From Bacteroidota bacterium (lineage in GTDB: Bacteria; Bacteroidota; Bacteroidia; Flavobacteriales; Flavobacteriaceae): 38,042 bases of DNA. Where the stretch lies: the NCBI GenBank assembly GCA_027621175.1, contig JAQCCM010000015.1, positions 1 through 38,042 on the forward strand, in the 5' to 3' direction. Shown here in pieces: positions 1,813 through 38,042 of this stretch. Below the pieces are notes generated by a model. That model searched no databases, had not been told where the DNA came from, and saw only the letters and a list, made by a program, of their open reading frames with translations. Position 1 is the first letter of the stretch. The number at the start of each line of letters is the position of its first letter. The position numbers and the translations under genes were made by a program.

Positions 1813-1833
1813 AAATTCTTTTAATAATTATAC

Positions 1834-1873
1834 AAAAGCATCTCACCCACAATGAGATGCTTTTTTTATTTTT
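1834..1873 (+). terminator. intrinsic terminator after prs-rplY
   Basis: A perfect 12-bp stem (1834-1845 AAAAGCATCTCA with 1853-1864 TGAGATGCTTTT) and 7-base loop are followed by a T-rich tract. It separates the prs-rplY unit from pth. Confidence 0.9.
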
Positions 1874-1879
1874 ACACAG

Positions 1880-3444: not shown

Positions 3445-3455
3445 AAAACACGATT

Positions 3456-8162: not shown

Positions 8163-8588
8163 ATGATAAATATTTTAATCCTTTGCACAGGTAATTCGTG
8201 TCGCAGTCAAATGGCACACGGATTTATGAATTTTTATGGCGGTAGCAAGGCGGCCGTTTACAGTGCTGGCATAGAAACCCACGGGCTCAACAAGCGCGCA
8301 GTGAGTATTATGCAAGAAGCTGGAATCGATATCAGCAAGCACACGTCAAATCACGTAGATGAATACAGCGATATACAATTCGACCACATCATTACAGTTT
8401 GCGACCACGCCCAAGAAAACTGCCCGTATATTCCAAGTGATAAAGCACAGCGTTGGCATAAAAATTTTAGTGATCCCTCAAAACTAAAATCCGAAGACGA
8501 AAACGAAATTCACAAAGCTTTTGCAGCAACAAGAGATGAAATAAAAGCGTACTGCAAAAACTTTGTAAAAACTTATTTGCTCGACTGA
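8163..8588 (+). CDS. arsenate reductase-like low-molecular-weight phosphatase
   Basis: Member of the low-molecular-weight tyrosine phosphatase/thioredoxin-coupled ArsC superfamily. The P-loop CTGNSCRS starts at Cys8, with the phosphate-binding Arg at 14. Cys80 and Cys87 (VCDHAQENCP) are seven residues apart, as are the redox pair of thioredoxin-dependent ArsC enzymes, which supports arsenate reduction over protein-tyrosine phosphatase activity. No ars repressor, efflux pump or methyltransferase gene is next to it, so the symbol is left blank. The 3' end overlaps the convergent acyltransferase gene by 16 bases. Confidence 0.85.
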   Translation: MINILILCTGNSCRSQMAHGFMNFYGGSKAAVYSAGIETHGLNKRAVSIMQEAGIDISKHTSNHVDEYSDIQFDHIITVCDHAQENCPYIPSDKAQRWHKNFSDPSKLKSEDENEIHKAFAATRDEIKAYCKNFVKTYLLD

Positions 8589-10381
8589 GATTTTGCTTCT
8601 AACGAAGCTTGAAATTCTTCCAAAACAGGTTGAACGGTACTGGCAGGAATGTCTTTTACCTTAATGTACATAAGGCCATCAATGGCATTATTAAACAACG
8701 GGTCAACATTAAATGACACCACGCGTGCGTTTTGTTTTATGTATTTTTTAATTAGTACAGGCAAGCGTAATGCACCCGGCTCTACCTCTTGAATAAGCTT
8801 ATCGAATTTGTTCAAATCGGCTGAAGTTTCGTCAAAAACAAACTCTTTATCTGCGTCATTTAGTTTGACTTTAAATTCTTTTTTTGGTGTAATGTATTGT
8901 GCCAAAAAGGGGTCGTAATAATGCGAACGCATAAACTCAATCATTAATGACTTGGTAAACTTTGAAAATTGATTGCTTATACTTACACTTCCCATAAGAT
9001 AATCGTATTCTGGATAGCGTAATGTGGCGTGAATAATCCCTTTCCAAAGCAAGAAGAGTGGCATGGGACGTTGCTGATATTGCTGGGCCACAAAAGCCCT
9101 TCCAAGCTCAATGGTGTTGTTTAGCATAAAATAGATTTCAGCATCAAACTTAAAAAGTTCCGCAAGGTAAAATCCTGATATCCCATGCTTATTCATAAGC
9201 ACTTTACCAAGTCCCAAACGGTATGCGCCAACCAGACTTTTGGCTTGGTGATCCCACAAAAAAAGATGTAAATAATCTTGGTCAAAATGGTCAAGATCAA
9301 GCGATTTATTGGTCCCCTCACCCACTGCCCTGAAGGCAATTTCGCGCTGGCGTCCAATTTCGTTTAGGATGTTTGGGATTTCGTTTGCAGCGGTCAGAAA
9401 AAGCTCGTAATCTTTAGATGTCAAAAGCGATTTGTTTTGCTGTTGTAGCCATGCAATCTCATTTTCAAGTAACGAAGTTGAAACAGGCGATGCAATGGGT
9501 GCTACTTTTTTACTTCTCCTGCGAAGCGGTCGTGGCATACGATTGAGTAGATGCTTGGGTTCAAAACTATTGGATAGCATGTAAACCTTACGTCGTAAAA
9601 ATGCCGCATAATCCGTTACAGAAGTGTGGATGTTTTGATCTTTTATAGAAATAACTTTCCCCACGCGAACATCAATAGTCCGATTTCTTTGTGTAAGCAA
9701 TTCGGCGGGAAGTCTTGCCGTGCGTAATAAGTCATGAATTTTAGCCAAACGATAGAAAAGTGGACTGTTGCGCGCGTGAAAATAAATGGGAACAACAGGG
9801 ACATTAGCGCGTTGAATAAGGCGTATGGTGGCTTCGTTCCATACTGGGTCTATGGGTACTTGTTTTTTTAAATGGGAGGCAACTTCACCCGCTGGAAAAA
9901 CAGCAAAAAGTCCCTCATTTTCTAAATGCCGTAAAACATTTCTAAAGCCAACTAAACTCGATTTTAGCGATTGTTTTTCGTTAAACGGATTTACAGGGAT
10001 AATCCATTTATTTAAAGGGGTTGCGCGTTCCAATAAAAAATTCGCCATAAGTTTTACATCTGGACGTAATTGCTGCATAAAGTGCATCAAAATAATACCA
10101 TCAATTCCACCCAATGGATGATTGGAAACCAATACTACAGGTCCTTTAGTAGGAATGCGTTTTAACTCATCTGGATTAATGTGATACTTAATTCTAAAGT
10201 GAAATAAAAGTGCCTCTAGAAATTGGGACTCGTCTCCGCTGGTGATACTTTTATCATAAATCTTATTGATTTCATCGAGGCTAAGAAACCAAAGAACAAA
10301 ACGACCAACAATGCGGCCAAATAAACCTGTTTTGGCAAGCCCAAGCACTGCGGCTACATCGGTTGAATATACAAGAGGCAT
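8573..10381 (-). CDS. bifunctional lysophospholipid/GNAT-type acyltransferase (OlsF-like)
   Basis: 602-residue two-domain protein. The N-terminal PlsC-type acyltransferase has the H..D motif as NHPLGGID (87-94, one residue longer than HX4D, as in hemolysin-like acyltransferases) and FPAGE (162-166). The C-terminal half (about 330-520) resembles the GNAT/hemolysin N-acyltransferase domain of OlsB-type proteins. This architecture matches OlsF, reported to do both the N- and O-acylation in ornithine (or related amino-acid) lipid synthesis in Serratia and Flavobacterium. Here that role, at the inner membrane and with acyl-ACP donors, is an inference; the head-group amino acid could be ornithine or glycine. 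Preceded by a near-consensus box TATATTTA. Confidence 0.8.
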   Translation of the reverse strand: MPLVYSTDVAAVLGLAKTGLFGRIVGRFVLWFLSLDEINKIYDKSITSGDESQFLEALLFHFRIKYHINPDELKRIPTKGPVVLVSNHPLGGIDGIILMHFMQQLRPDVKLMANFLLERATPLNKWIIPVNPFNEKQSLKSSLVGFRNVLRHLENEGLFAVFPAGEVASHLKKQVPIDPVWNEATIRLIQRANVPVVPIYFHARNSPLFYRLAKIHDLLRTARLPAELLTQRNRTIDVRVGKVISIKDQNIHTSVTDYAAFLRRKVYMLSNSFEPKHLLNRMPRPLRRRSKKVAPIASPVSTSLLENEIAWLQQQNKSLLTSKDYELFLTAANEIPNILNEIGRQREIAFRAVGEGTNKSLDLDHFDQDYLHLFLWDHQAKSLVGAYRLGLGKVLMNKHGISGFYLAELFKFDAEIYFMLNNTIELGRAFVAQQYQQRPMPLFLLWKGIIHATLRYPEYDYLMGSVSISNQFSKFTKSLMIEFMRSHYYDPFLAQYITPKKEFKVKLNDADKEFVFDETSADLNKFDKLIQEVEPGALRLPVLIKKYIKQNARVVSFNVDPLFNNAIDGLMYIKVKDIPASTVQPVLEEFQASLEAKSQSSK

Positions 10382-21893: not shown

Positions 21894-23222
21894 TCAGCGA
21901 TCTTTAACCGCTTGAGCGATTTTCCCATGATCTATACATGAAATACGTTTTCCATCTTTAGTTCTGTTAAAATGCGCACGTATATCCGAATAACTGCTAG
22001 GTAATTTGACATTAATAGCTTCTCGAATGGGCGTTCTAAACTTATTTAAACTTATGAGATTTGCGACAAAATTCATTTTACGTAAAGCACCTGAGCTATC
22101 GGTTGATGATATGGGAGTATCCTCTTGAGAATTATAGTACGCAAATGATTCAGCAATATCCTCAACGATATTCGTTCTGGCATAGGCTGTTACATGTGAA
22201 GGTTCATTAAGCGTTACTGATTCGTCGTAAAAAGCTGTATTAAAACCATCCAAAGCTGATGCTTCCCGTGCGCATCCTTCTCGAATATATAGCCTGCTAC
22301 AATCATCTGGACCTGTTAAAATATCCATTTCTCGTGCCTGGTTTAGCGTCATTATATGTCCGAATTCATGAGTAAGAACATATCCAAAGAAACCATTTTC
22401 ATTGTATTTCTGTCGGATTTTCATTTTTGTTACTGGATCAACCGTATAATAAGCCCGTGACAATTCTAAACCCATATACCATTGGTCCTCTCCTGATTTA
22501 GATACATTACGTACAAAACCTTGAAGATCTGCACTAAAGTCAAACATTACTTCAAGATATTTTATTCCTATGTCCCCAAAAGAGGTAACCTCCAGGATAT
22601 CATCTTTTACTTCCTGTTTAAGACCATTATCAATAATACTTTTTTGATCATTATCGGATATTTTTTCTCTATTTAAAGCAATAAGGTTAAAGTTGTTGTT
22701 ATCCAAAGCATAGATGGCTATACCGTAAGTCACACTAATGTTGTTTTCGTTATCTTCAACAATACATTCAACTGGGTCAATTGAGCCTGAAATACTAAAC
22801 TTATCACCCGCATCAACCGTAAAATTTAATTTAAATTCTTCGTGAACTTCTAACTTTTTATCATCCAGAGTATTCAAGCGTATTTTTAAGTCTTTTGTGT
22901 TTTTAGGGAAAGTCACAGATGAAGCAGTTCCTTTTCTCCATGTTTTCCCTGAATCTGAACTGTATTCAAAGATGGGGTTGTAATCATCTTTATTAATGTA
23001 TTTAACGGTTTCAGTAGTGTCTATAACAAGCTTTATAGGCAGGTCTTCTGAAAGCTCTTTTGAAAGGGATAGATTATAAATGAATGGAGACCCTTCAACT
23101 GTACCAATAAGGCTGGACTCTCCCGCTATGGTTGCTTTCAAGTTTACATATTCATCTTTTTTACAACTTGTAGAAAGCATCAGGGCTAGCAAGGATACAA
23201 GGGTAGTAAGTTTTAATCTCAT
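21894..23222 (-). CDS. lipoprotein with putative zinc metallopeptidase domain
   Basis: 442-residue lipoprotein: signal peptide with lipobox (LALMLSTSC, Cys at about 20), then a beta-rich region (about 25-140) that looks like a Calx-beta/DUF-type repeat (LKIRLNTLDDKKLEVHEEF). A C-terminal domain holds HEFGH at 285-289 (YVLTHEFGHIMTL) and the possible third zinc ligand Glu358 in NIVEDIAESFAYY. This suggests a gluzincin-like metallopeptidase anchored on the outer membrane or in the periplasm. The exact family is not recognised. It is 5 bases downstream of the next gene, so the two form one transcript. Confidence 0.6.
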   Translation of the reverse strand: MRLKLTTLVSLLALMLSTSCKKDEYVNLKATIAGESSLIGTVEGSPFIYNLSLSKELSEDLPIKLVIDTTETVKYINKDDYNPIFEYSSDSGKTWRKGTASSVTFPKNTKDLKIRLNTLDDKKLEVHEEFKLNFTVDAGDKFSISGSIDPVECIVEDNENNISVTYGIAIYALDNNNFNLIALNREKISDNDQKSIIDNGLKQEVKDDILEVTSFGDIGIKYLEVMFDFSADLQGFVRNVSKSGEDQWYMGLELSRAYYTVDPVTKMKIRQKYNENGFFGYVLTHEFGHIMTLNQAREMDILTGPDDCSRLYIREGCAREASALDGFNTAFYDESVTLNEPSHVTAYARTNIVEDIAESFAYYNSQEDTPISSTDSSGALRKMNFVANLISLNKFRTPIREAINVKLPSSYSDIRAHFNRTKDGKRISCIDHGKIAQAVKDR

Positions 23223-24099: not shown

Positions 24100-26109
24100 C
24101 TAATTGTATTGCTCTCCGCTCCCTTGAGCATATAAAACACCGCTTCCGTCTGCCTTGGTAGGCCATGTGAAGCTCAGTTTAGTTTTCGGATTGGCATCGC
24201 CAAATAGCACGTCTGCAATACCTTCCCCCGCCATACCAGGTAAAAAAGAAGCTACAAAAGCGTCCCATTGTGCTTCCATATCGTGTACCAACAATGGGCG
24301 TCCAGAAAGCAACAAAACGACAACTTTATTCCCAGAAGCATTAGCGCGTTCTAAAACTTCTAAATCAGCTTTATTAAGGCGTAAGTCAGCGTCGTCACCA
24401 AATCCTTCGGCATAAGGATATTCTCCAATAACAGCGAGGATAACATCGCCTTCAGGAAGTGTATTAGCGTTTGGCTCATAAGTGATTTTCGCACTTGGCG
24501 CTACTTTTTTAATACCATCTAAAATTGTTGTTCCGCTTGGCTGAAGTACACGATTTGCCATGAAAGCAGTAAAATCTGCTGGAGAAACTTTACCATTTTC
24601 GTCTGGGTCAATTTCATTAAAATAAGCTACCCAATCCGCAGGGTTAAATTTGTTCTCAAAAATTTTTTCAAGTTGTATGTTATATTCGACTTTGGTAAGT
24701 ATCCCATCGGCATTGTAGTCCAAAAAGTGGAAATCGGGTGTGAAAAATCCTTGCCAATCGGTTGTCCAACCCCCGTTTTGTACACCAAGATTGTTTGCCG
24801 CTGAGCCTACTACCGTAATTGAAATGGACTTGTCAAATGGAAGTGTCCCTTCGTTTTTCAATAATACAGCAGATTTTTGAACCGCTTCACGAGCAAGTGC
24901 ACGGTGTTCCGAAGACCCTATTTTACTTAAGAACGAATCGTCAATTAAAGGGTCATCAAATAGACCAATCTCCATTTTAACTTTTAAAATTCTACGTACC
25001 GCGTCGTTAATACGCTCCATGGGAACGCTACCTTCGTTTACTGCATCAATCAGTAATTTTATAAATGTTTTGTAGTGTTGTTGGTTTTGACCTTTCATGA
25101 TTCCTGGCACCATTACCATATCAATACCCGCATTAATACCATTTATCACATCCGATTTGTAATCTCCTGGAATTTCATCAATTCCTGCCCAATCCGAAAC
25201 GACAAAACCTGCAAAGCCTAGCTCTTCTTTAAGTAAATCGGTTAAAAGGTATTTATTTCCGTGGCATTTTTCTCCGCGAACACTATTAAAACTCGCCATT
25301 ATCGTTTTTACATCGGCAGCAATAGCTGTTTTGTATGGCGGAAGATATATTTCCCGAAGCGACTTATCATTTAATTGAACATCGCCTCGATCAATGTGAT
25401 ATGTGTGTTTACCATCCACCCTGGTTCCCGTACCCCAAACAGTAGCCCCATCTCCTATAAAATGTTTAGCACAGGCTGCCACTTGTTTGTTTTGCACACC
25501 CGACAACCTATCTTGGTAGCCTAGAATCGCTGCTTGCGTAAGCCCATCCACAATGTCGGTAGTTTGACCAAATCCTTCGTAAAAACGCCCCCACCTAGCA
25601 TCTTGCGGAATGGTAATACAAGGCGAAAAAGTCCAATGAATTCCAGTAGCAGCAACCTCAATTGCCGTAGCTTTATTTACACGATATACAAGGTCCGCAT
25701 CATTAGAAGCACCAAGTGCGAGGTTGTGTGGAAATACTGTAGCGCCCAAAACATTGTTATGTCCATGAACAGCGTCAATTCCATAAATAAGGGGAATTCC
25801 AAGGCGGTTACTCATAGCTATTTTCTGGTACCCATTTACCATATCTAGCCATCCTTTTGGTGTATTTGTTTTTGGAGCTGAACCCCCTCCACTAAGAATA
25901 GAACCAATGTGATAGGTTTGAATATCCTGTGGACTATCTATTAAACGCATATCTACTTGTGTCATTTGACCCACTTTTTCAGCGAGTGTCATTTGGCTTA
26001 AAATAGCGTCCACTTTTTTTGAAACACTTTTTTCTTGCTTTGACGTTTGCGAACAGGATGTAAAGGCAAAACAAGCAATAAGCAAGAGTTTAAGACATAT
26101 TGATTTCAT
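24100..26109 (-). CDS. GH3 beta-glucosidase lipoprotein with inserted EF-hand pair
   Basis: 669-residue exo-acting glycoside hydrolase, probably releasing glucose from laminarin oligosaccharides. Type II signal peptide with lipobox (CFAFTSC, Cys19). The N-terminal barrel has QDARWGRFYEGFG, KHFIGDGATVWGT and the nucleophile Asp306 in VSDWAG; the C-terminal domain has GEYPYAEGFGDD with the likely acid/base Glu. Unusual: between GGWTTDWQG and SGTTILDGI there is an insert of about 70 residues with two canonical EF-hand loops (DYNADGILTKVE, 464-475, and DPDENGKVSPAD, 501-512). The GH17 gene lies 21 bases upstream. Last intact gene of the PUL. Confidence 0.9.
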   Translation of the reverse strand: MKSICLKLLLIACFAFTSCSQTSKQEKSVSKKVDAILSQMTLAEKVGQMTQVDMRLIDSPQDIQTYHIGSILSGGGSAPKTNTPKGWLDMVNGYQKIAMSNRLGIPLIYGIDAVHGHNNVLGATVFPHNLALGASNDADLVYRVNKATAIEVAATGIHWTFSPCITIPQDARWGRFYEGFGQTTDIVDGLTQAAILGYQDRLSGVQNKQVAACAKHFIGDGATVWGTGTRVDGKHTYHIDRGDVQLNDKSLREIYLPPYKTAIAADVKTIMASFNSVRGEKCHGNKYLLTDLLKEELGFAGFVVSDWAGIDEIPGDYKSDVINGINAGIDMVMVPGIMKGQNQQHYKTFIKLLIDAVNEGSVPMERINDAVRRILKVKMEIGLFDDPLIDDSFLSKIGSSEHRALAREAVQKSAVLLKNEGTLPFDKSISITVVGSAANNLGVQNGGWTTDWQGFFTPDFHFLDYNADGILTKVEYNIQLEKIFENKFNPADWVAYFNEIDPDENGKVSPADFTAFMANRVLQPSGTTILDGIKKVAPSAKITYEPNANTLPEGDVILAVIGEYPYAEGFGDDADLRLNKADLEVLERANASGNKVVVLLLSGRPLLVHDMEAQWDAFVASFLPGMAGEGIADVLFGDANPKTKLSFTWPTKADGSGVLYAQGSGEQYN

Positions 26110-26130: not shown

Positions 26131-27072
26131 TTAAAATTTCAACTTTTCATTTTTATCCCACAGTCCCCAATAGGCCCCTACTTCGCCTTCGGGTCCTACT
26201 TTCCAAGACTCGTCAAAAGAAGAAAAATAAAACACATCGATATTTGCGTTTTTTGCCCAAGCTTGGGTGTTTATGAAGTACTTCATGGCGTGTATTTCAG
26301 AGGGAACAGACCCTTTTAGCGGTTCGCCTTTACTAGGCCAGCCTGTTTCCGTAATGATCACCTTTTTGCCTTTAGCCGCACTCCATACCTGCCCATACAT
26401 TTGCTGCATATGATTTAGTGCATATTCCTCTGGACAACCCTCCCAAAAAGGATAGCAGTTAGATAGGATCACATCAGAATGCTCTACAAGCTCTGGGTGT
26501 AAAGAAAACTCATAATACGCATCAACATAGCCAATGGGTATGTGTGAGGGAATGGCCTTACGAACTCGCTTCATAAATTTTAGGAGTGCCTCGAGTGTCA
26601 AATCGTTTCGGTAAAGCACTTCGTTGCCTACGGCAGCGATATCTACACAGCCTTCATTGGCAAGTGCAATGAGTGACGTTATTTCTTGCTCATTTTTTTC
26701 GTCATCGTCTCCAAGCCATGCGCCTACCATGGTTTTTAGTCCATGCTTGTGCGCTAAACGAGGAATGTGTTCATTACCTTCAATACAAGAAAATGAGCGT
26801 ATCCATTTGGTGTATGGTTTTAAGATTTTTACACGACGTTCCACTTGTGCTTCCGTGATGGTGTCACCGGGTTGTTGTCCGTCTTCGTACATGCTAAAGC
26901 AAATGCCATGCATGCCTGATTGAAGCGTTTTACGCCATAACGCTTTAAAATCTTTGGGAATAGGGGTATTAGATGAAGAATCTTGAGGAATAAATGCCTC
27001 AAAATCAATCCCCTTGTATGACTTGTACGTTAAATCTTCTAAGCTAAATTCTACGCCTTCCCTGTATGACAT
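26131..27072 (-). CDS. GH17 beta-1,3-glucanase without signal peptide
   Basis: 313-residue family 17 glycoside hydrolase acting on beta-1,3-glucan. Acid/base Glu151 in AVGNEVLY, nucleophile Glu242 in ITETGWPS, and SFDESWK with LWDKNEK near the end. No signal peptide is seen, so it is probably cytoplasmic. The frame is open to 27123, but the ATG at 27072 lies one base after the TAA of the transporter-GH17 gene (TAAaATG) and is the better start. It is clearly paralogous to the GH17 half of that fusion (shared GLKTMVGAW, NCYPFWEG), so a duplication is likely. A free cytoplasmic partner to the tethered enzyme is an inference. Confidence 0.9.
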   Translation of the reverse strand: MSYREGVEFSLEDLTYKSYKGIDFEAFIPQDSSSNTPIPKDFKALWRKTLQSGMHGICFSMYEDGQQPGDTITEAQVERRVKILKPYTKWIRSFSCIEGNEHIPRLAHKHGLKTMVGAWLGDDDEKNEQEITSLIALANEGCVDIAAVGNEVLYRNDLTLEALLKFMKRVRKAIPSHIPIGYVDAYYEFSLHPELVEHSDVILSNCYPFWEGCPEEYALNHMQQMYGQVWSAAKGKKVIITETGWPSKGEPLKGSVPSEIHAMKYFINTQAWAKNANIDVFYFSSFDESWKVGPEGEVGAYWGLWDKNEKLKF

Positions 27073-27073
27073 T

Positions 27074-29425
27074 TTATTCGTATTTGCGTTTTTCGTTTTT
27101 ATCCCAAATTCCCCATCGTGCACCTACATCACCCTCGTGATGTACTTTCCAAGATTCATCAAAAGATGAAAAGTAGAATAAGGGTACTTTTTGCGCTGCC
27201 GCCCAGGCGCATGCATTAACAAAATACTCCATCGCATTTTGAGAAGACGGCTTTGATTCTCCGACAACATCCCCTTTGTTTGGCCATCCTGTTTCCGTTA
27301 CAATAACAGGTTTTCCATTTGCTATGCTTTTGGTTGCTTGAACCATTTCGTTTAAATACGATGTGGCAAATTCAATTTTACTGCCTTCCCAAAAAGGATA
27401 GCAATTGATTAGAATTACATCACATGCTTCAACTAATTTTGGGCGCTTAATAAACTGATAATATGCATCTACATATCCTAGTTTAATGTCTGGAAGAGCA
27501 CTTTTAACTTGAGCTAAGTAGTTAAGGATTTGTTGTTCGTCTAAATCATCACGCATCAAGGTTTCATTCCCTACTACTGCAATATCAACGAGCCCGTCTT
27601 CGGCGAGTTGAATAAGCGCTTTTATTTCCTTGTCATTTTCTTCTTTATCAGCACCTATCCAAGCACCAACCATGGTTTTAAGTCCTTTAGCTTTGGCCGC
27701 TTTAGGGATATGCTCATTCCCTCCCGTACACGAAAACGAACGCACCCAATTGGTGTAAGGAGCGATGATATCCATTCTTTCATTTATTTGACTTTCAGAT
27801 AAAATATCTCCAACATTTTGATTTTCGCGATAAGGGCTAAAGCAAATGCCATGTAACCCAGTGTTTAAGACTTTACTAAACAACGCTTTTTGTTTTGGTT
27901 TTGAATATGTTGAAAAATCAATATCCGAATGAAGTCTTGTTGTGATATGTGCGCCAGTTAAGTTAGAGAGGTTACCTAATTGGTACTGATACGTATTCGT
28001 TTTAGCTGTGTCTTTTCGTGCTTTTAATTGTGCTCTGATTTCATTGGCACGTTTCTCATCAATACTATAATCTCGCATTATCCACATGGCTAAAAGGGTG
28101 CCTGCAAGAGGGAAAAAGCAGAAAAATGCGTGTAATCCATCAACAGCCGGTTGTTGTTCTACGGTGGCTAAATCTGGGTTGAAGCCCACAATAGCAATGA
28201 TAACACCACTAAGGGCTCCAGCTATGGCAAAACCTACTTTAACCATCCACCAATAAATAGCGCCAAAAAGGCCTTCTCTACGTAAGCCCGAATTTAATTC
28301 ATCAATGTCAATGACATCTGCGGTCATAGACATCATAATGGTAAATAAACTTCCTATCCCAAACGAAAAGAAGGGTAGAGCGATGATATACATCCAAGGT
28401 TTACCAGGAACAAATAAAAACCAAAGCAATAAATATCCTAACACTGAAATCCCCTGAGCTATGATAAATGCTTTCTTTTTACCAAAATTCCTGGACATCC
28501 ATGTAACGATTGGAATGACAATAAATGTAGTTCCCAATGCACTTAAACAACCAAAAAGAGAAACCCAAATACCACTTGCCCCAGCATCTCCGTTAAAGAG
28601 TTTATAAACGATCACAAAAAAAGTAAGCGCTGCGACGGTGTTAAACGCATTAAAAATTAAAAATGTAGCGCCACATAATTTTCTAAACTCTTTTATTTTA
28701 AATGCAGCTATAAAACTGTGATAAATCATTTTTAGACTGTTCCCAACATTAGCCATATTTAAGGGCTCATAATTTTCATTAAGAGTTGATTTACTCTTAA
28801 TAAATATTGCTGGTACTATTGCACAAATCGCACACGGAATAGCAACCCATATAGATAACTCTCTAACCGCAACTTCTGCAGATGGGAACCATTCTGGATC
28901 GTACATAATAACCCAAAACCATGGCGCAATCACCCATGCCCATTGCCCAATCCATTGCGCAATGGCCATGATATTGGTGCGTTCATGAAAATCGTTACTC
29001 ATCTCATAGCCCATAGCTACATAAGGCACACTGAAAAAAGTTAGGCCCAAGTAAAAAACCAAAGACCAAAGAAAGAAGTACCAGAAGTTAAACTCTAATG
29101 AGTTTTCCTTAAAGAGTTGCCACATAAAAATATAAGCGACTCCCATAATTATACCCCCTATCAAAACATACTGCCTACGACGTCCCCACTTCGATTTTGT
29201 GTTATCTGATATAAAACCCATTATAGGATCCGTAATGGAATCGAATATTCTTGGAAAAAAATAAATTAAAGACCACATCCATCCAGGAAAACCTAAGTCT
29301 TGAACTAAAACAACCATAAAAATTCCTAAAATAGCAGGGAACATTTGGTTTGCAAACATTCCTACGCCAAAAGCTATTTTTTCAGTTATGGAAACTTTAT
29401 GAGACGGTAAAGACTGTGCTTTCAT
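27074..29425 (-). CDS. MFS (GPH family) sugar transporter fused to GH17 glucanase
   Basis: 783-residue fusion. Residues 1-450 form a 12-segment transporter with the GPH cation:sugar symporter signature FDSITDPIMGFISDNTKSKW (61-80) followed by GRRRQ. A basic linker (451-500, RDYSIDEKRANEIRAQLKAR) leads to a complete GH17 domain (501-783) with acid/base Glu621 (VGNETL) and nucleophile Glu711 (VTETGWPN). With 12 segments and a positively charged linker both ends lie in the cytoplasm, so the enzyme would hang inside the cell beneath the pore. A role in importing laminari-oligosaccharides and trimming them on entry is inferred. It follows GH30 after 9 bases, and a free GH17 follows after one base. 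Confidence 0.92.
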   Translation of the reverse strand: MKAQSLPSHKVSITEKIAFGVGMFANQMFPAILGIFMVVLVQDLGFPGWMWSLIYFFPRIFDSITDPIMGFISDNTKSKWGRRRQYVLIGGIIMGVAYIFMWQLFKENSLEFNFWYFFLWSLVFYLGLTFFSVPYVAMGYEMSNDFHERTNIMAIAQWIGQWAWVIAPWFWVIMYDPEWFPSAEVAVRELSIWVAIPCAICAIVPAIFIKSKSTLNENYEPLNMANVGNSLKMIYHSFIAAFKIKEFRKLCGATFLIFNAFNTVAALTFFVIVYKLFNGDAGASGIWVSLFGCLSALGTTFIVIPIVTWMSRNFGKKKAFIIAQGISVLGYLLLWFLFVPGKPWMYIIALPFFSFGIGSLFTIMMSMTADVIDIDELNSGLRREGLFGAIYWWMVKVGFAIAGALSGVIIAIVGFNPDLATVEQQPAVDGLHAFFCFFPLAGTLLAMWIMRDYSIDEKRANEIRAQLKARKDTAKTNTYQYQLGNLSNLTGAHITTRLHSDIDFSTYSKPKQKALFSKVLNTGLHGICFSPYRENQNVGDILSESQINERMDIIAPYTNWVRSFSCTGGNEHIPKAAKAKGLKTMVGAWIGADKEENDKEIKALIQLAEDGLVDIAVVGNETLMRDDLDEQQILNYLAQVKSALPDIKLGYVDAYYQFIKRPKLVEACDVILINCYPFWEGSKIEFATSYLNEMVQATKSIANGKPVIVTETGWPNKGDVVGESKPSSQNAMEYFVNACAWAAAQKVPLFYFSSFDESWKVHHEGDVGARWGIWDKNEKRKYE

Positions 29426-29434
29426 GTGGTTGAT

Positions 29435-30916
29435 TTAGTTGTTAATCATAATAGTCTGTATGGCTTGAGGGCTTATACTGATGGTTTTGGTTAGGCCGTT
29501 AAGTGATAGTTCAAAATTTTTGGGAGAAGTTCCTTCATTAAAAACAACAACTGCAATAGATGCATCTGGGTTTTTGGCAGCAGTCACCATGAGTTCCTTG
29601 TCAGAATGTTGGGCATCAATGACTACCGCACCTGGGCGAATATATTTGCTAAAATGCGCCATGATGTAGTATAAGGGAGTAAAATAAACTTCGTCCTTTT
29701 CTGTATCTACAATTACTGGGGCAATACACCAGTTATTTGCCCAGTTGGGACCTCCTTTTGTGTCTAAAACCATGTTCCAATCTACCCAACCGTCAACCCA
29801 GTTGTTTAGGCAACCAATAATATCTCGGGCATACCGATTTGCAGGGGCATATTTTGGGTGTAGATATTTTTTAGAGGCTTCGCGCCAATCGTAGCCCCAA
29901 TCTGTGGCTTCTTTTTTCCAATACCATTTGTCATCTTGCCACACCGGAACTTCAGCATCTATACAAGCCTCTGTTTGAATAAGGTATTTATCGGGAGCCT
30001 TTTCGTGCGCATATTGTAATTCTGTTGGGAAATAGTCATACGTACTCTCGTACCAATGCACCGCAGTCCCATCATAATATTTTGATGAAGCAGCATCTTT
30101 ATACATCACATCTACCCACTCGCGGATGCCTTCACGGTTTTGATCATAACCTAGAATAACTAAATCTCCCTTGCCATCGGCTTCTAATTTTGGCCCTAAA
30201 AAATGTTGTACAAAATGGGTCATTTCTTCTGGTGAATAATGCATACTCTCCCAATTTTCACCATTCCCGTGTGGTTCATTTTCAACGGTAAAGCCCCAAA
30301 TATCAATACCCTCCGCTTTATACGCATCCACATATTTGGAAAAAAACAAGGCCCAAGTGTCGTAATATTCGGGCAGGAGTTTTCCGCCCACCCAACTATT
30401 GTTGTCTTTCATCCATGGTGCAGCAGACCACGGAGAGGCAAAAAGACGAAAGCCGTCTTCCGAAACAGCCATAGCATCCTTTATCATGGGAATCAAATCA
30501 TCTTTATCCTCATCCACAGAAAAATGAAAGAGTTCCTTGTCGCCAGGAACAGGTGTATAGGAATAATTGTTCAAGGAAAAGTCACATGAATTCATGTGGG
30601 TTCGCGTCAGGGAATAGCGGGCTCCCTCTTTAGCAAAATACGCTTTTAGTATGTTGTCTCTATTTTCTTTGCTCACCTTATTTAGTAAGTATGCCGATGA
30701 TTCTGTAAAAGCACCTCCAAAGCCTGTAATGGTTTGAAATTTTTTAGCGACATCCAAGTTTATGGTTGAGGGCTTTTCATCAACGCTAAAGTCAGTTCGT
30801 TTTGTGTGTTTGTTTCCGCTTTCAGAAGTTTCAAAAACCTCCACTTCTAAGGGTTGTGTACAAGAAGCTAATGTCATAACTAATATAAATACGAATTGAG
30901 TTGTGTAGCGCGTCAT
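29435..30916 (-). CDS. GH30 beta-1,6-glucosidase lipoprotein
   Basis: 493 residues, lipoprotein signal peptide with lipobox (LVMTLASC, Cys at 19). The GH30_1-like (beta/alpha)8 barrel shows ITGFGGAFTESSAYLL, the acid/base Glu214 in TVENEP and the nucleophile Glu316 in QTEACID, then a short C-terminal beta domain ending in FNEGTSPKNFELSL. GH30 enzymes of marine flavobacterial laminarin PULs are reported to remove beta-1,6-linked glucose branches from laminarin; that role is assigned here by family and context. It is followed after 9 bases by the transporter fusion, and preceded by the lipoprotein GH17 with 21 bases between. Confidence 0.9.
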   Translation of the reverse strand: MTRYTTQFVFILVMTLASCTQPLEVEVFETSESGNKHTKRTDFSVDEKPSTINLDVAKKFQTITGFGGAFTESSAYLLNKVSKENRDNILKAYFAKEGARYSLTRTHMNSCDFSLNNYSYTPVPGDKELFHFSVDEDKDDLIPMIKDAMAVSEDGFRLFASPWSAAPWMKDNNSWVGGKLLPEYYDTWALFFSKYVDAYKAEGIDIWGFTVENEPHGNGENWESMHYSPEEMTHFVQHFLGPKLEADGKGDLVILGYDQNREGIREWVDVMYKDAASSKYYDGTAVHWYESTYDYFPTELQYAHEKAPDKYLIQTEACIDAEVPVWQDDKWYWKKEATDWGYDWREASKKYLHPKYAPANRYARDIIGCLNNWVDGWVDWNMVLDTKGGPNWANNWCIAPVIVDTEKDEVYFTPLYYIMAHFSKYIRPGAVVIDAQHSDKELMVTAAKNPDASIAVVVFNEGTSPKNFELSLNGLTKTISISPQAIQTIMINN

Positions 30917-30937: not shown

Positions 30938-32194
30938 CTAATATGTTGGGGGTAAAACAGAAATAAATACATTTTCATTATTTCCATTAAATGTTTTTGT
31001 AATGGGTGCGCCATTTCGTGTAAGTCCATCAAAAATTCCCTTGTCAACAAAATCCCAAAGGGCATATTTGGCTTTTCCGTCAACAGTAATGAGACCAAAA
31101 TGATTCTCAGATCCCTTTGGATTATGTGCGTCTTTCCAAGGCTCGTCAAAGGCTTCAAAATAAAAACAAGACACGCCATTTTCTTTAGCCCATGAGCGTA
31201 TAAGCTCATAATACTTTGCCTGTTTGTACTGGTCAGCAGCGTGAGATCCTTTTCTGCCGTAAAACCCATTTGAAATTGTAGCCCACCCTGTTTCACCAAT
31301 ATGTATGGGTTTTTCAATACCCAAGCTGTTCATGTATTTTTTTACTCCGTTGTACTGAGAAACAGCAAAATCACGCGCCCGTAACATCGCAGCATCAATG
31401 AGTTGGCGTGGGGTTTTGTCCACAGCATCGTCAGGTTGAATATCCCAAAAAGCAGGTGTGTAATGTGTGTTATGAAAGGGATACGTATGCATTGAAATAT
31501 AGTCCACGGCTGCCATAAGCGCTGCCAAGTCTTCGGTGTGGTATGAAGGGTCGCCACCGCCCCAAGAAGCAAAGTCGTCTGAACAGGTAATCCACAAATC
31601 ATTGGACAGTTTTCCTTCTTTCTTTAGGTCTTGCAAGTGTGTTACCCATTTTAAAATAATATGTGGCTCAACGTAATAAGAGGTTGCCCACCTTACCATC
31701 GCCTCATTTCCAACCGCAATGATTTTAACAATATCTGGATATTGATTGGCAAGTTCAACCGCTTTGTCAATTTCTTGCGCATTGCGCTCACTTTCCACAT
31801 GATGATTCACCACCTTGTCTGTCCATGCGTTTAGGCAGTCAATCCAAGCGCCTAACATCACGTACATTTCAAACTCAGGATTTTCCTTTCTTAGTTCTGA
31901 AATGGCTTTTAGCAAATTAGCAGCCTGAGGTAAATGCACATTATAGGTTCTCACAATGCGAATGCCCATAGCGTGAAGAATTTTCATGTCTTCTTTTAAC
32001 TCAACAATGGTGGGCTGAACATCACGAGATGTCTTTCGGTATCCGCCATACGATATTGCTTTGTATTTGGGGTTTCCTAAAATTTCGCCCGCAGTTTTGC
32101 TTTCCATACTCGAATGTTGTGTGTTACAAGACACTGAAAACCATAACACTAGTGTGAAAAATCCATATACTCCGATAATTCTCATAGTGCTCAT
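30938..32194 (-). CDS. GH17 endo-beta-1,3-glucanase lipoprotein
   Basis: 418 residues; signal peptide and lipobox (LWFSVSC, Cys23). GH17 fold with IRIVRTYNVH (early beta strand), acid/base Glu164 in AVGNEAMV, TYPFHN and the nucleophile Glu301 in IGETGWAT, FEAFDEPWK near the end. Longer and more distant than the two cytoplasmic GH17 modules of the same locus (IRIVRTYN instead of WIRSFS), so it has a different origin. Likely outer-membrane-anchored or periplasmic, cleaving laminarin backbone. An alternative ATG at 32185 (codon 4) is equally possible. It is 47 bases downstream of the phosphorylase. Confidence 0.88.
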   Translation of the reverse strand: MSTMRIIGVYGFFTLVLWFSVSCNTQHSSMESKTAGEILGNPKYKAISYGGYRKTSRDVQPTIVELKEDMKILHAMGIRIVRTYNVHLPQAANLLKAISELRKENPEFEMYVMLGAWIDCLNAWTDKVVNHHVESERNAQEIDKAVELANQYPDIVKIIAVGNEAMVRWATSYYVEPHIILKWVTHLQDLKKEGKLSNDLWITCSDDFASWGGGDPSYHTEDLAALMAAVDYISMHTYPFHNTHYTPAFWDIQPDDAVDKTPRQLIDAAMLRARDFAVSQYNGVKKYMNSLGIEKPIHIGETGWATISNGFYGRKGSHAADQYKQAKYYELIRSWAKENGVSCFYFEAFDEPWKDAHNPKGSENHFGLITVDGKAKYALWDFVDKGIFDGLTRNGAPITKTFNGNNENVFISVLPPTY

Positions 32195-32241: not shown

Positions 32242-35200
32242 CTATTCTTTCAAAACAGAAACGATTATTTTATTAATGGTATTCTTTCTTTGAAAAACAG
32301 CGGCACTAAGGGGTGCATCCAATTGGTTTGACAAAAATGTCTGTGATTCACCAGATTGAAAGAGTACTTCAGTACGGGCTGTTTTTGATTTTTTATATAT
32401 GATTGGCACTTGACAATAGGTAAATGCCAAGGTGTCTTTTTCTAATGCAATCGTATGCTGCTCGCCATTTACGTTTACATAGTGGAACGTTTGCGGTGCA
32501 TTTAAAAATTCAGAGCCGCGAAGTATGGTTGGGTCAAATTTGAGGACCCCATTTGATACGCGAACACCTAGTTCTCCAAAGCGACTGATAATATCTTCTT
32601 TTACCTGCCCTGTCATTCCAGGTTGTTGCGCGCCTTTTCCGCCTGGAGTATGCGAATACGGATCTGTAGGGAAAGCACCGTATAATGCTGGGGATTTATG
32701 CGCACCAATACCTGCATTGATTTCAAAGTAATGGTCAAATAATTTTCCAATTAATGCGGGGTCTTCATTGGCATGAATCGCATCACGGGTAATCTCATAC
32801 ACTGCCAAAAGCAATTTAGATACCATATGCCAATAAATAGAACCTAAACCTTCATAGCCAAAGAAAGTGCCTGAACGTCCTGTAAAAGACTTATGGTCGA
32901 AAATGTCTTCGAAAACTTGCTCAACGAAAGCGGTTTCTTTGGCTACCATTGCTTGATATTGCTCGGGCAATGCCTTCAGTGCAGCTTGCACGCTATCCAC
33001 ATTGTTAAAGTTTCCATTAAAGTGATAATCACCACGCAAATCCTTGGAGAGTACTTGTTTGTTGTTGTCACGAACCAATTTTGTTAGCAACACTGACGCC
33101 TCGACTTTTTCTTTAGGGATCGTGTTTTTATTGACAAATCGGGGGAGTTCTTTGTTTGGATACAATATATAACTGTACTGATCAGGTCTGAACAATGCGC
33201 TTGCCTTTAGTCCATTAAGCACATCGAGACTTTCTTTGGCTGATAAATAACCTGAACTAAGCACAGCAACTTGCCCCTCAAGCATTTCAGGAAGGTGCGA
33301 AATACGCACTTGTTCTTTTCCGTTTAAAGTCATGAGGTTGTACGCATGATACAGGTTGTCATGGCGTTTATTTGCTTCAACAGAATGCTCTAAAAATGCA
33401 TTCGCTACATCCAAAAAGGATATAATATCTTCTTTACTAAGGCTGTTTTTATCTCCAGAAAAACGGTTATCATAAATGGTGTTACGGTATAAGCTTCCTG
33501 CTTCACCTAGCACATCCATAAGACTTTTTCTATCCACATCTGAAATGCTTCCGTTCAACAACGGTTTGTGTTCTTGTAGTCCCGCTGTAACTTGATTAAA
33601 AAACAGATGCAGCTCTTTAGAAATATGAAAATCTGTGCTATCTGAATTTGTTAAAACAGTTTCAAAAAAGCGTAAAAAACGACGCAAGTAATACAAGGTA
33701 ACCATAGACACCCCATTTCCAACAAGAGCATTATTCGCATCATTCCATTCTGGGCGCTGGGTGTTCATCCAAATACCACCCTCAGGGATAAAGTTTGACA
33801 TTTTTGCCAAAACTGTTGCTAGTATTTTCTCAACGAAATTAACCTTGTAAATAAAAACAGTATTGTCACGGAGCAGTGCTCCATCTACACCTATTTCTTC
33901 TCTTTTGAAGTGAATATTTTCTTCTCGCTCAAAGTCAAAATCGATGGTGTTTTTAGCATCTTTTAAAATGTCCTGATAACTCTTTATGCGGTAAGGCACA
34001 TTGGCATATACAAACAAATCTTGTTTGAAATATGACTCCAGCTTATTGGGATAATAATCCTCAATAAACTCTAAGAATTTTAAGAGATAGATAATTTGAT
34101 GATCTCCCCAATAACCAATGTATGACCAAGGGTTGTCGGGCTCGATGGTTTCCCAATCAAATCCGCCTTTGGTAACACGATACGGATTGTATCCATCGAA
34201 AGTGGTGGCATTCAAAAATTTATGAATCATGCCCTCAATAAACTCTGGATACGAATGTGCCAAGGCTTCCCAGTTTTGGAAAATATCTCGCCAGTTTCCT
34301 TCGTAATCTAAAATTTTATCCCCGTTTTCAGTTCGGGTATTTATCGAAAATTTATTCCAAGGACGACTCGGATCGCCATGACGCCGGCTAAACTTCAAGG
34401 GTAAATACTCATAGCACAACCTTTTAAAGTTTTTATTGTCATCTGCTTCAGCAATTTCTTTGAGGTGATTAACGTCAAACAACTCAGGAAGTGATTCCAA
34501 AATAGGTTCTTTTAATCTAAACACTTTGCGATTGGCATTGGCAATATAAGCTGTAAAATCCGCCTTTTCTATTTGGTAATTGTTGTCAAAAATACCACCT
34601 CGCATGATGTTAAACATGGTGTTGGCAAAATGACGAATATTACGCAATCGGTCGTTGGTCATTTGTATTCCATCTGCAGCTCCTACCAATTGTATCAAAT
34701 GAGCAGAGCCACGGGCAATATCTTCCAATACTTCTGCTTCCAAATGGGTGTTTTGGAGCAATTCATCTTTAATTGAAACAACATCTGAAATGGTCTTATT
34801 CACATCTGCTACGAGCATCCATTTTTTTGATTCGCCTCCAGACAGCGCAATGGTATCGGTAACAAAATAAGCCCCTTTTTCAGCTTTAACGTTTACTTCT
34901 TGTGTTGGGTCTTGTCCGCTACGGAAGGTATCCAATTGTAGCGATGAAATAAGTTTTGTGGAATTTTCGAGTCCAATAGACCAAACCACATTTGCTTTTA
35001 AAGATTCGCTGGGTTCGGCTTTATCTACAATGATGGCACTCAAAGAGTAAATCCCAAGTCCTGTATCTTCCTCCAACTCACATTTCTTGTAAGCATCTAC
35101 AAGGTTACTACTGGCGTTTTGCAAGGATGGATCAACGCCATTTGGCAAAATATTTTGAATGCCGTCTAACAGCTTTAACGAAATATTCTCGGCGCTGTTA

Positions 35201-35733
35201 TTGGTAACATTAGACTTACGAACAAACCCATACTTATCGCTAGAATTCCACTCGTAGGTGAAAGTAACTTCTAGGTCGTGATTGATTTCTTCAAAAATTA
35301 TTTTGTTGCCGTAGGTGTTTTTATACAGATTACGTGAAATGGTATATATGCCATTGTGCTGCTCTGAAAAAGGTTCCCACAAGAAATTTTTACCAGACTT
35401 GGCAATGATAAAGATGGTTTTACTTCCTGTAGTTTGCGCAGACTCGGTAATTTTATCGTCTGTGTAGTATGGAAAGAGCGCATAATTGCTGTTCTGCCGT
35501 CCAGCAGATAAACTTCCTTTGCTAGAAATAAACATCCAATGATTGGAATTACTAACAATACTCATAAAAAACGGACGCATGCCGTCTGCGTTTGAAATCT
35601 TATAAAACGTTTCACCGTTTTTTGTCACTTCAGCACCTTTAACTTCTTTGTCTTGAAATTGCGCAGGATGCTGACCTAAAAACATGGATTTTTCAGCTGT
35701 CATTGTTGGTTTTGTAAGCGTTGTATTCGTCAC
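32242..35733 (-). CDS. GH94-like beta-1,3-glucan phosphorylase (GH149/GH161 type)
   Basis: 1163-residue (alpha/alpha)6-type phosphorylase, no signal peptide, hence cytoplasmic. The motif RPEWNDANNALVGNG (Asp665 in EWND) corresponds to the catalytic acid in DWND of GH94 cellobiose/laminaribiose phosphorylases; RKSNVTN in the N-terminal beta domain and LYGAFPTDPYSHTPG near the C-terminus are also present. Length and motif layout fit GH149 or GH161, families known to phosphorolyse beta-1,3-glucan to glucose-1-phosphate; the sequence alone does not separate the two. The PUL context supports laminari-oligosaccharides as substrate. The first codon used here is GTG; the first in-frame ATG is codon 11 (35703). 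Confidence 0.85.
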   Translation of the reverse strand: MTNTTLTKPTMTAEKSMFLGQHPAQFQDKEVKGAEVTKNGETFYKISNADGMRPFFMSIVSNSNHWMFISSKGSLSAGRQNSNYALFPYYTDDKITESAQTTGSKTIFIIAKSGKNFLWEPFSEQHNGIYTISRNLYKNTYGNKIIFEEINHDLEVTFTYEWNSSDKYGFVRKSNVTNNSAENISLKLLDGIQNILPNGVDPSLQNASSNLVDAYKKCELEEDTGLGIYSLSAIIVDKAEPSESLKANVVWSIGLENSTKLISSLQLDTFRSGQDPTQEVNVKAEKGAYFVTDTIALSGGESKKWMLVADVNKTISDVVSIKDELLQNTHLEAEVLEDIARGSAHLIQLVGAADGIQMTNDRLRNIRHFANTMFNIMRGGIFDNNYQIEKADFTAYIANANRKVFRLKEPILESLPELFDVNHLKEIAEADDNKNFKRLCYEYLPLKFSRRHGDPSRPWNKFSINTRTENGDKILDYEGNWRDIFQNWEALAHSYPEFIEGMIHKFLNATTFDGYNPYRVTKGGFDWETIEPDNPWSYIGYWGDHQIIYLLKFLEFIEDYYPNKLESYFKQDLFVYANVPYRIKSYQDILKDAKNTIDFDFEREENIHFKREEIGVDGALLRDNTVFIYKVNFVEKILATVLAKMSNFIPEGGIWMNTQRPEWNDANNALVGNGVSMVTLYYLRRFLRFFETVLTNSDSTDFHISKELHLFFNQVTAGLQEHKPLLNGSISDVDRKSLMDVLGEAGSLYRNTIYDNRFSGDKNSLSKEDIISFLDVANAFLEHSVEANKRHDNLYHAYNLMTLNGKEQVRISHLPEMLEGQVAVLSSGYLSAKESLDVLNGLKASALFRPDQYSYILYPNKELPRFVNKNTIPKEKVEASVLLTKLVRDNNKQVLSKDLRGDYHFNGNFNNVDSVQAALKALPEQYQAMVAKETAFVEQVFEDIFDHKSFTGRSGTFFGYEGLGSIYWHMVSKLLLAVYEITRDAIHANEDPALIGKLFDHYFEINAGIGAHKSPALYGAFPTDPYSHTPGGKGAQQPGMTGQVKEDIISRFGELGVRVSNGVLKFDPTILRGSEFLNAPQTFHYVNVNGEQHTIALEKDTLAFTYCQVPIIYKKSKTARTEVLFQSGESQTFLSNQLDAPLSAAVFQRKNTINKIIVSVLKE

Positions 35734-35805: not shown

Positions 35806-36666
35806 TTATTGATAAATTCTTATGTAATCCACTTCCATAGTAGCTGTGGTGAAATTCGGGGGAATTGTACCGCCAAGATCTCCTCCCATGGCAATATTAA
35901 ATAATACATAATGTGGGAAACGATAAGGCATGCTGTTATCGATAACTCGAGAAAAAAACACCTCGTCGTTAAAGAGAATTTTAATTTCATCTTTTGTCCA
36001 AACTAGAGAATACAGGTTGAATGTTGTTGCTGTGTTTTGAACGCGTTTGGTTCCGCCAATGTTTTGATATTGCGAGGTTTGAATATTACCCCAATGCAAG
36101 TGTCCAATAAGATTGTCTTTGTCCCAGCCGTTTTGCTCCATGATGTCAATTTCACCACATTTGGGCCAGCCCACACTACCGTAAGTACTACCGTGATAGT
36201 TTCCGCGCTCATTAATGTTCGCGCCTAATGTCCAAAAAGCAGGCCAAGTGCCTTGTTCGGAAGGCAGTTTAGCCCTAATGTCAATACGACCATACTGAAA
36301 TGCATATTTGGTATTTAAACGGGCAGATGTATAACTATTCGTGTTTCCTTCGAAATTGTATTGTTCTTTTTTGGCAACAATTTTAAGCGTTCCATCGCTT
36401 ACATAGGAGTTGTCTTTGCGATTTGTATAATGTTGTACCTCGCCGTTTGCCCAACTATTTCCAATGATTGGAATAATTTGGTGATGCCACTTGTCACTAT
36501 CTACAGCTCCATCATAGTCAAACTCATCTTGCCATTTCAATGTCATACCGTACTTGGTAACCGTTGTTGGTTCTTCTGGAACAACAGGTTCAACCGTAGG
36601 CGCGTCATCTTTTCCACAACCAACCAAAAACAACAACAGAAGCAATTTAAGCTTATATAAACCCAT
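35806..36666 (-). CDS. GH16 endo-beta-1,3-glucanase (laminarinase) lipoprotein
   Basis: 286 residues; lipobox LFLVGC (Cys17), then a proline/glutamate-rich linker (TVEPVVPEEPTTVTK), then one GH16 jelly-roll domain (about 44-286) starting LKWQDEFDYDGAVDSDKW. The active site is GEIDIMEQ (nucleophile Glu172, Asp174, acid/base Glu177), the form of GH16_3 laminarinases. Surface or periplasmic, cutting beta-1,3-glucan. It lies downstream of the probable glycan-binding protein (277-base gap with palindrome) and upstream of the phosphorylase (72 bases). Confidence 0.92.
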   Translation of the reverse strand: MGLYKLKLLLLLFLVGCGKDDAPTVEPVVPEEPTTVTKYGMTLKWQDEFDYDGAVDSDKWHHQIIPIIGNSWANGEVQHYTNRKDNSYVSDGTLKIVAKKEQYNFEGNTNSYTSARLNTKYAFQYGRIDIRAKLPSEQGTWPAFWTLGANINERGNYHGSTYGSVGWPKCGEIDIMEQNGWDKDNLIGHLHWGNIQTSQYQNIGGTKRVQNTATTFNLYSLVWTKDEIKILFNDEVFFSRVIDNSMPYRFPHYVLFNIAMGGDLGGTIPPNFTTATMEVDYIRIYQ

Positions 36667-36943: not shown

Positions 36944-38042
36944 TTACTTTTTATAGAAATAAACGTTATCTAAGTATAATGCAGTAACATTACTTCCATC
37001 ATTTTCATAGATAAGCTGTCCAATTTTTGATTTTGGCGATAATGACAATGGAATATCTATACTGCTCCATGCATCTCCAGTAAGATCCGCACTTGTCAAT
37101 GTAAATACTTGTGTAGTATCATCTCCATTACCGTCTGCCCCATCAGCACCAAAATCCTTGATGGTTACTTTCAATTTTGCGTCACTAGGGAGTGATCCTG
37201 GAATAAACACATCAAAATGAAAATGTGTCATTTGAGAACCATTAACCGTTGGGCTTCCAAATTGATGCCCCACAAAGTTGAAGTTTTCGTAACTAAGAAT
37301 GTTATCTCCATTTACATCAAAATCAGCAGACGTGGTAGTCTGATAAGGCTCCCAATACCCGTTGTAAAAATCTACAGGTACATTTTCATATGCATCGCTA
37401 AAAATAGAAATAACATCTGCTGCTGCATGTGTTGGCGCATCTGGCAAATCAAATATTCCTACAGAATTAATAGTCGTCGAACCAACAGCGTCAACGCCAT
37501 TAAGTGATGCGGTTATGGTTGCTGTTCCAGCACCAACTACTGTAATTTCTCCTAGTTCGTTTACCTGAGCAACAAATGGATTCGATGTTTTAAAATCCAA
37601 ATACCCTGGCGCAATAGCAATCTTAACAACTGAACCATCACCTAAAGTAACCGTTTGTGTAATTCCAGTGATTTTAATGACAGAATCTGTGTAAGATGTC
37701 TGTGTGTTATTTTCACCTCCAAATATAGAGGTCAAAGGTTGGGCAACAATTCCTAATCTCTCAAATCGGATTTCATCCATCCAAAGCGTATATCCAAGTC
37801 CGCTTGTATTGGCTGTTCCTGCAGAAAAGGCAAATACACCCTTTTCTTGTACCAATTTTGAAGCGTCAGGAATTGGAATGGTGTATTTTCTCCAGTCTGT
37901 GGAAAGGGTAACATTATTTAATCCAACGGCATGCTTATCGCCTTCAAAGTCAGTTCCAAAGCCAAATAAACCAATCTCAGCCGTTACCGATCCTTTTGCC
38001 CAAAAAGTGAGGGCATCGTATTTGGTTAAATTTCTTCCTTTC
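36944..38042 (-). CDS. probable surface glycan-binding protein, cut by the window edge
   Basis: Minus-strand reading frame open from the right edge to a stop at 36944, so the N-terminus, including any lipoprotein signal, is missing. About 366 codons are seen. Content: a carbohydrate-binding-like beta domain (TFWAKGSVTAEIGLFGFGTD; TLSTDWRKYTIPIP), a BIG2-like Ig domain (LGEITVVGAGTATITASLNG) and a C-terminal jelly-roll-like domain with GNGDDTTQVFTL and LDNVYFYKK. This arrangement is like SusE/F-position glycan-binding lipoproteins in laminarin PULs; binding is inferred, not shown. An internal ATG at 37855 is only an internal Met. Confidence 0.75.
   Translation of the reverse strand, partial: KGRNLTKYDALTFWAKGSVTAEIGLFGFGTDFEGDKHAVGLNNVTLSTDWRKYTIPIPDASKLVQEKGVFAFSAGTANTSGLGYTLWMDEIRFERLGIVAQPLTSIFGGENNTQTSYTDSVIKITGITQTVTLGDGSVVKIAIAPGYLDFKTSNPFVAQVNELGEITVVGAGTATITASLNGVDAVGSTTINSVGIFDLPDAPTHAAADVISIFSDAYENVPVDFYNGYWEPYQTTTSADFDVNGDNILSYENFNFVGHQFGSPTVNGSQMTHFHFDVFIPGSLPSDAKLKVTIKDFGADGADGNGDDTTQVFTLTSADLTGDAWSSIDIPLSLSPKSKIGQLIYENDGSNVTALYLDNVYFYKK

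Follow-up and report, generated by a model that had tools for sequence, protein, structure and literature searches.

A transporter-GH17 fusion of the FbGH17B type in a laminarin-type locus: side of the enzyme tail, altered active site and history

A contig of a Flavobacteriaceae genome carries a gene in which a sugar transporter appears to run directly into a glycoside hydrolase, which raises the question whether this is one intact protein, on which side of the membrane its enzyme part lies and what an enzyme tethered to an importer might do. The window analyzed here comprises the whole stretch of 38,042 nucleotides and represents the entire contig C4. The gene is located on the minus strand at exactly 27074–29425 as a single open frame of 783 codons from ATG to TAA. 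Pfam assigns residues 19–457 to MFS_2 (PF13347, 208.4 bits) and residues 706–783 to Glyco_hydro_17 (PF00332, 46 bits with a cut-off of 28.2), and a 12-segment MFS transporter thus continues in frame into a C-terminal GH17 domain, the architecture of the FbGH17B type. A preliminary description of this DNA had read the gene in the same way and had named the erroneous joining of two genes among the findings that would refute it. We scanned genome contigs for relatives and, from 573 stretches that were confirmed, analyzed open frames and best matches in the best 80, where the same fused frame was found in 67 loci, ruling out a frameshift, chimera or assembly error. Although the other 13 of these 80 have MFS and GH17 as two neighboring genes, the recurrence of the fused frame, together with a tail that differs from the adjacent free gene and groups with other tails in the tree, leaves a sequencing or assembly error with a negligible probability.

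Fusions of this kind in Formosa laminarin loci had been mentioned in the preliminary description, and this is borne out by FbGH17B (FORMB_24740, AOR29491.1) of Formosa sp. Hel1_33_131, an MFS-GH17 fusion of a laminarin locus for which Unfried et al. 2018 (PMC6246565) give 12 helices, a model in the inner membrane and measured kinetics. The purified enzyme was active only on debranched laminarin and yielded glucose. According to the same paper the fusion is common among marine Flavobacteriia, and its authors were not aware of other bacteria in which a transporter and a CAZyme are joined in this way. The architecture is therefore already published, and the gene of the window is a further FbGH17B-type example with some new evolutionary detail. 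Judged by its published description, FbGH17B shares with it the N-terminal 12-helix MFS part, the C-terminal GH17 domain and a laminarin locus that also contains GH30 and a further GH17; the fusion of a Formosa MAG among our loci (L051) is 66% identical to that of the window.

The surroundings in the window likewise form a laminarin-type locus, in which all genes are on the minus strand in the order GH16 (35806–36666), GH149 (32242–35733), GH17 (30938–32194), GH30 (29435–30916), fusion, free-standing GH17 (26131–27072) and GH3 (24100–26109), assigned by Pfam except for GH149. The fusion thus lies beside GH30 and a lipoprotein-type GH17, as expected for the FbGH17B type. Inspection of the N-termini by eye suggests lipoproteins for GH16, GH30, GH3 and the GH17 at 30938–32194, which takes the position of FbGH17A/MlGH17A, and no signal peptide was visible in this way in GH149 or in the free-standing GH17. 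GH149 is a beta-1,3-glucan phosphorylase by its match to NF058639 (1792.7 bits, cut-off 1150). The free-standing GH17, 313 aa long from its ATG, starts 1 nt after the stop of the fusion and is a paralogue of the tail with 55–56% identity. The three GH17 genes of this locus are the only ones that the Pfam model detects in the assembly, which comprises 1.73 Mb on 42 contigs at a completeness of 86%. Since the window is the entire contig the locus is visible only up to 38042, and any SusC/D beyond this point is outside our view. Such loci have been reported as active in laminarin turnover (PMC6246565, PMC10108472). At the contig end a 5'-open frame (36944–38041, minus strand) has no Pfam or NCBIfam match; relatives of it are present in 27 of the 67 fused loci from the best 80 of 573, lying upstream of the fusion in 26, and its product is perhaps a surface glucan-binding protein.

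We determined the orientation of the tail from the membrane segments. Between residues 23 and 450 a GES scan detected twelve strong hydrophobic segments, whose 19-residue means range from 1.08 to 2.39, in agreement with the complete 12-segment transporter proposed earlier. A thirteenth segment, which would place GH17 on the outside, was looked for in the same scan beyond residue 475; only weak stretches of 0.63 and 0.68 were seen, both within the GH17 domain. If the N-terminus is inside, the cytoplasmic loops of the window's protein hold 28 Lys and Arg residues versus 4 in the other loops, with residues 451–475 at the C-terminal end of the transporter contributing 8 of the 28. With segment borders placed by hand from the GES scan, the inner side exceeded the outer side in all 53 aligned fused proteins. 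Foldseek ranked structures of MFSD2A and MelB (PDB 4m64, 8t60), several of them inward-facing, as matches to the transporter part; these chains share the transporter fold and are without an enzyme tail. Both termini of MFS proteins are cytoplasmic. Because of the twelve segments with none later, the charge bias and the fold match, the cytoplasmic position of the GH17 tail claimed in the preliminary description is well supported. A tail facing the periplasm, which the GES scan and the charge bias exclude as a candidate, appears highly improbable; we found no support for it, and the two enzymes that Unfried et al. (PMC6246565) name as likely periplasmic are taken here to be FbGH30 and FbGH17A.

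The NCBIfam model of the GPH family (TIGR00792) matched the transporter over its full length with 182.9 bits, below the cut-off of 231.35; the protein does belong to the wider MFS_2 family. Of the earlier term GPH-type, the MFS_2 affiliation and a MelB-like pair of aspartates therefore stand, and GPH-like is the safer name. The pair consists of D62 and D66, which align with D55 and D59 in helix II of MelB and are invariant in all 53 aligned fused proteins; we take D59 of MelB to have a role in the cation site. Titles of PDB entries label changes of D55/D59 as cation-site mutant and D59C mutant. At the positions of Asp19 and Asp124 of MelB, presumably sugar-site residues, the window has Gln27 and Ser132, and the substrate therefore probably differs from that of MelB.

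The transporter part extends over residues 1–476 (27998–29425) and includes, after the twelfth segment, a C-terminal helix of its own at residues 457–476 in the AF2 model. This helix is common to unfused relatives, which end shortly beyond it, so the junction corresponds to the natural end of the transporter. A transporter of residues 1–450 followed by a basic linker, as described before, thus needs correction: a variable linker does exist at residues 477–512 (27890–27997), while the helix preceding it belongs to the transporter. Within the interior of the protein, conservation is lowest in the linker, where the mean top-residue share is 0.47; the two domains reach 0.81 and 0.73. An AF2 prediction of the full length on the 53-protein alignment, a check that had been suggested, gave two folded domains (pLDDT 85.2) matching MFSD2A/MelB and the GH17 transferase, with a weak hinge at residues 474–481 where pLDDT is below 50. 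At a pTM of only 0.60 the model does not fix the position of the tail relative to the pore.

The GH17 domain covers residues 513–783 (27077–27889). Its best solved match is the fungal transferase RmBgt17A, with a TMt of 0.85 to 4wtr_A by Foldseek and an alignment to 4wtp over residues 547–774 (E 2e-31) in a search of the PDB. Both catalytic glutamates noted earlier were confirmed by alignment with the catalytic pair of 4wtp: Glu621 in VGNE (27563–27565) is the acid/base and Glu711 in ETGWP (27293–27295) the nucleophile, the latter aligning with an Ala in the active-site mutant 4wtr. RmBgt17A shares the fold and this pair with the tail but is a single-domain protein and keeps a tyrosine (Tyr102 according to PMC11005184) that the tail lacks. 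In the numbering of MlGH17B from Muricauda lutaonensis this is Tyr136 at the aglycone site. MlGH17B belongs to the same GH17 group, is 53% identical to the FbGH17B module and represents the counterpart of the free gene at 26131–27072, whose Tyr is kept as Y154; unlike the fusion it is a single-domain, unfused transglycosylase (PMC11005184).

We compared these positions in 72 tails and 105 free copies, leaving out short domains and duplicate loci and placing the MlGH17B residues on the alignment by hand from PMC11005184. Both catalytic glutamates are present in 72/72 tails and 105/105 free copies, as are the equivalents of Trp191 and Glu192 of MlGH17B, and many other active-site positions of the tails are near-invariant. 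The aglycone Tyr is found in none of the 72 tails versus 97 of the 105 free copies, the tails having Leu (45), Met (24), His (2) or Gln (1) instead. A similar split is seen at subsite -3, where Pro50 of MlGH17B is matched in 1/72 tails versus 104/105 free copies. The tail of the window accordingly keeps Trp679 and Glu680 and has Met624 in place of the Tyr, and so lacks the complete Tyr/Trp/Glu set of an MlGH17B-type transglycosylase. PMC11005184 (citing Qin 2015) reports that changing the Tyr to Ala abolishes transglycosylation in RmBgt17A, and also that FbGH17B has Met at this site, as in the window. The Met of FbGH17B is therefore already in print, whereas the wider pattern of tails versus free copies is apparently new; our literature search, largely confined to main text outside subscription journals, found no report of this split or of a second fusion. 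Eight of the 105 free copies (L021, L057, L059, L060, L063, L064, L072 and L084) have Leu at the Tyr site as do many tails, so the change arose among free copies too.

A search of genomes for the combined architecture, likewise suggested beforehand, allowed us to follow the fusion beyond this contig. Among the 67 fused loci (from the best 80 of 573) the free cytoplasmic GH17 directly follows the fusion in 63, GH149 is found in 62 and the lipoprotein-type GH17 in 64; GH30 was present in 48 within the stretch fetched, some stretches stopping at contig ends. In one fused locus (L016) the tail is cut short. The titles of the records name Flavobacteriaceae, Cyclobacteriaceae, Flammeovirgaceae, Saprospiraceae, Lewinellaceae and Chitinophagaceae, and one record (L072) is from groundwater; the fusion is therefore not confined to marine Flavobacteriia. 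In a sample of the order at least 6 of 395 genomes were fused (G000, G003, G163, G318, G039, G236) and in a sample of the phylum at least 15 of 395, made up of G432, G508 (a frame of 792 aa), G000, G163, G039, G236 and nine more; the two samples overlap and only the best candidates per genome were scored. G330, G286 and G384 seemed to contain frames of 1025, 1045 and 1274 aa, which proved on inspection to be separate genes. A third kind of GH17, about 310 aa long and about 26% identical, directly follows the free GH17 in several loci (L009 13263–14198, L015 13311–14255, L017, L022, L067, L085).

The two parts of the fusion turned out to have different histories. In a quick, unrooted tree of the 177 GH17 domains the fused and free forms are split by one branch (SH-aLRT 100) with one state change. 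In a more careful rooted tree of 48 rows the free copies and the tail of one genome, G432, form a clade (99/99) and the other tails a comb at the base; the outgroup, five GH17s of the third kind, is very distant, the bootstrap had not settled, and the tree fits either form as the ancestral one. A quick tree of 119 transporter domains required 16 state changes, at least 11 of them forced by well supported branches, and flagged two long branches meeting (L087, L108). A set of 83 rows, from which these two, 13 rows of a divergent clade and in total 23 near-copies and long rows had been dropped, rejected a single clade of fused transporters (AU p 0.0003). Since one branch splits off the tails and the AU test rejects a common clade for the fused transporters, these trees indicate that the tail has repeatedly been either lost from transporters or exchanged between them. 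The tail of L056 (Nonlabens tegetincola), a candidate for an independent fusion with only 49% identity, falls among the other tails. The divergent transporter clade (about 40% identical; L112 289–2856, L113 1498–3993, L119, L120, L114) carries an insertion of about 35–60 residues after the ninth segment, and two of its members have a GH17 tail. A transfer of tails onto the transporters of L112 and L113 was not supported, as a tree that kept the other tails together without these two fitted no worse (AU p 0.605).

G432 encodes an 820 aa MFS-GH17 fusion (L137, G432:C1:1288000–1293500, positions 1381–3843, minus strand) with a longer linker and a tail of the free type, which was not among the 72 tails. 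This tail agrees with the free copies at all 6 positions that separate the two groups, the retained aglycone Tyr among them, and its 84 best matches among the 177 domains are all free copies. It lies inside the free-standing clade in the rooted tree, with the very distant outgroup mentioned above, and the 20 free copies formed a group excluding it in 0% of the 200 bootstrap trees. No other cytoplasmic-type GH17 was found within 19.5 kb around this fusion. An AU test on the quick tree did not reject all fused tails including that of G432 on one side (p 0.865). By these comparisons the G432 fusion is probably a separate, independent event. Together with the eight free copies lacking the Tyr, its tail shows that loss of the Tyr and fusion are not strictly linked.

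How might such a protein work in the window? The fusion, its twelve segments with their inward charge bias, the conserved catalytic residues and the locus can be read from the DNA alone; the cargo, hydrolysis by this tail and a benefit of tethering are what we infer. We consider it likely that the gene is a member of the FbGH17B type with a hydrolytic tail at the exit of an importer within a laminarin locus. The lipoprotein-like GH16, GH30, GH17 and GH3 would cut and debranch laminarin outside the inner membrane, and short laminari-oligosaccharides would enter through the transporter, probably together with a cation. The tail, as the hydrolytic paralogue of the neighboring free cytoplasmic GH17, would hydrolyze the oligosaccharides arriving at the exit, and GH149 would convert the remainder to glucose-1-phosphate. 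Most simply, tethering would provide one enzyme per importer and limit the amount of free oligosaccharide at the inner face. Some points speak against this proposal. A hydrolase beside a phosphorylase wastes energy that phosphorolysis saves, and an unfused transporter suffices in 13 of the 80 loci that were the best of 573. In the corresponding Muricauda locus, where MlGH17B is predicted to be cytoplasmic, the periplasmic-type MlGH17A gives mainly DP2–4 (PMC13188888), whereas the substrates of MlGH17B start at DP4 (PMC11005184); unless the tail has another specificity, good substrates may therefore be scarce for it.

It is also conceivable that the tail is mainly regulatory or structural, sensing oligosaccharide or stabilizing the transporter with catalysis of minor importance. 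Relatives in the GPH family carry C-terminal cytoplasmic regulatory domains; LacS is a GPH transporter with a cytoplasmic C-terminal IIA domain, which is a phosphotransfer-type regulator and not a hydrolase like the tail discussed here. While the loci doing without a tail would also fit such a role, the retention of both catalytic glutamates and of much of the active site throughout the 72 tails argues against it, as does the enzymatic activity of purified FbGH17B (PMC6246565), and we regard it as quite improbable.

A true vectorial machinery, in which a mechanical or kinetic link ties cleavage to transport and substrate passes from pore to active site unmixed with the cytoplasm, fares somewhat better and is still unlikely. 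Such a coupling of import and cleavage, raised in the preliminary description and proposed by Unfried et al. 2018 (PMC6246565), is only plausible. The fusion is retained across several families of Bacteroidota, and the distance from the end of the twelfth segment to Gly526 is 71–77 residues in all 53 aligned proteins. Against this stand the linker as the least conserved interior part, the differing histories of tail and transporter in the trees and the AU test, and the low pTM of the model.

Returning to the hydrolytic tail, a wider reading that joins these results is tentative: a GH17 may have been tethered to the exit of a laminari-oligosaccharide importer at least twice, in the same place of the same locus, and the tail of the main lineage may have specialized as a hydrolase whose outer subsites are altered and which directs sugar into breakdown on entry. 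The free sibling would keep transglycosylation and could rebuild glucan for storage, and transporters would since have lost or exchanged the tail on many occasions. The suggested division of labor between hydrolysis and transglycosylation centers on one residue. Laminarin is one of the sea's large sugar pools. One importer occurring in nature both with and without the tail allows the direct question whether tethering an enzyme at the pore helps.

Two further genes of the window, both on the minus strand, were noted during annotation. At 21894–23222 a lipoprotein-like protein of 442 aa has no Pfam match and shows by eye a zinc-protease-like HEFGH motif. The frame at 8573–10381 matched the model of the ornithine-lipid synthase OlsF with 409.7 bits, under the cut-off of 620, followed by models of glycine-lipid synthases.
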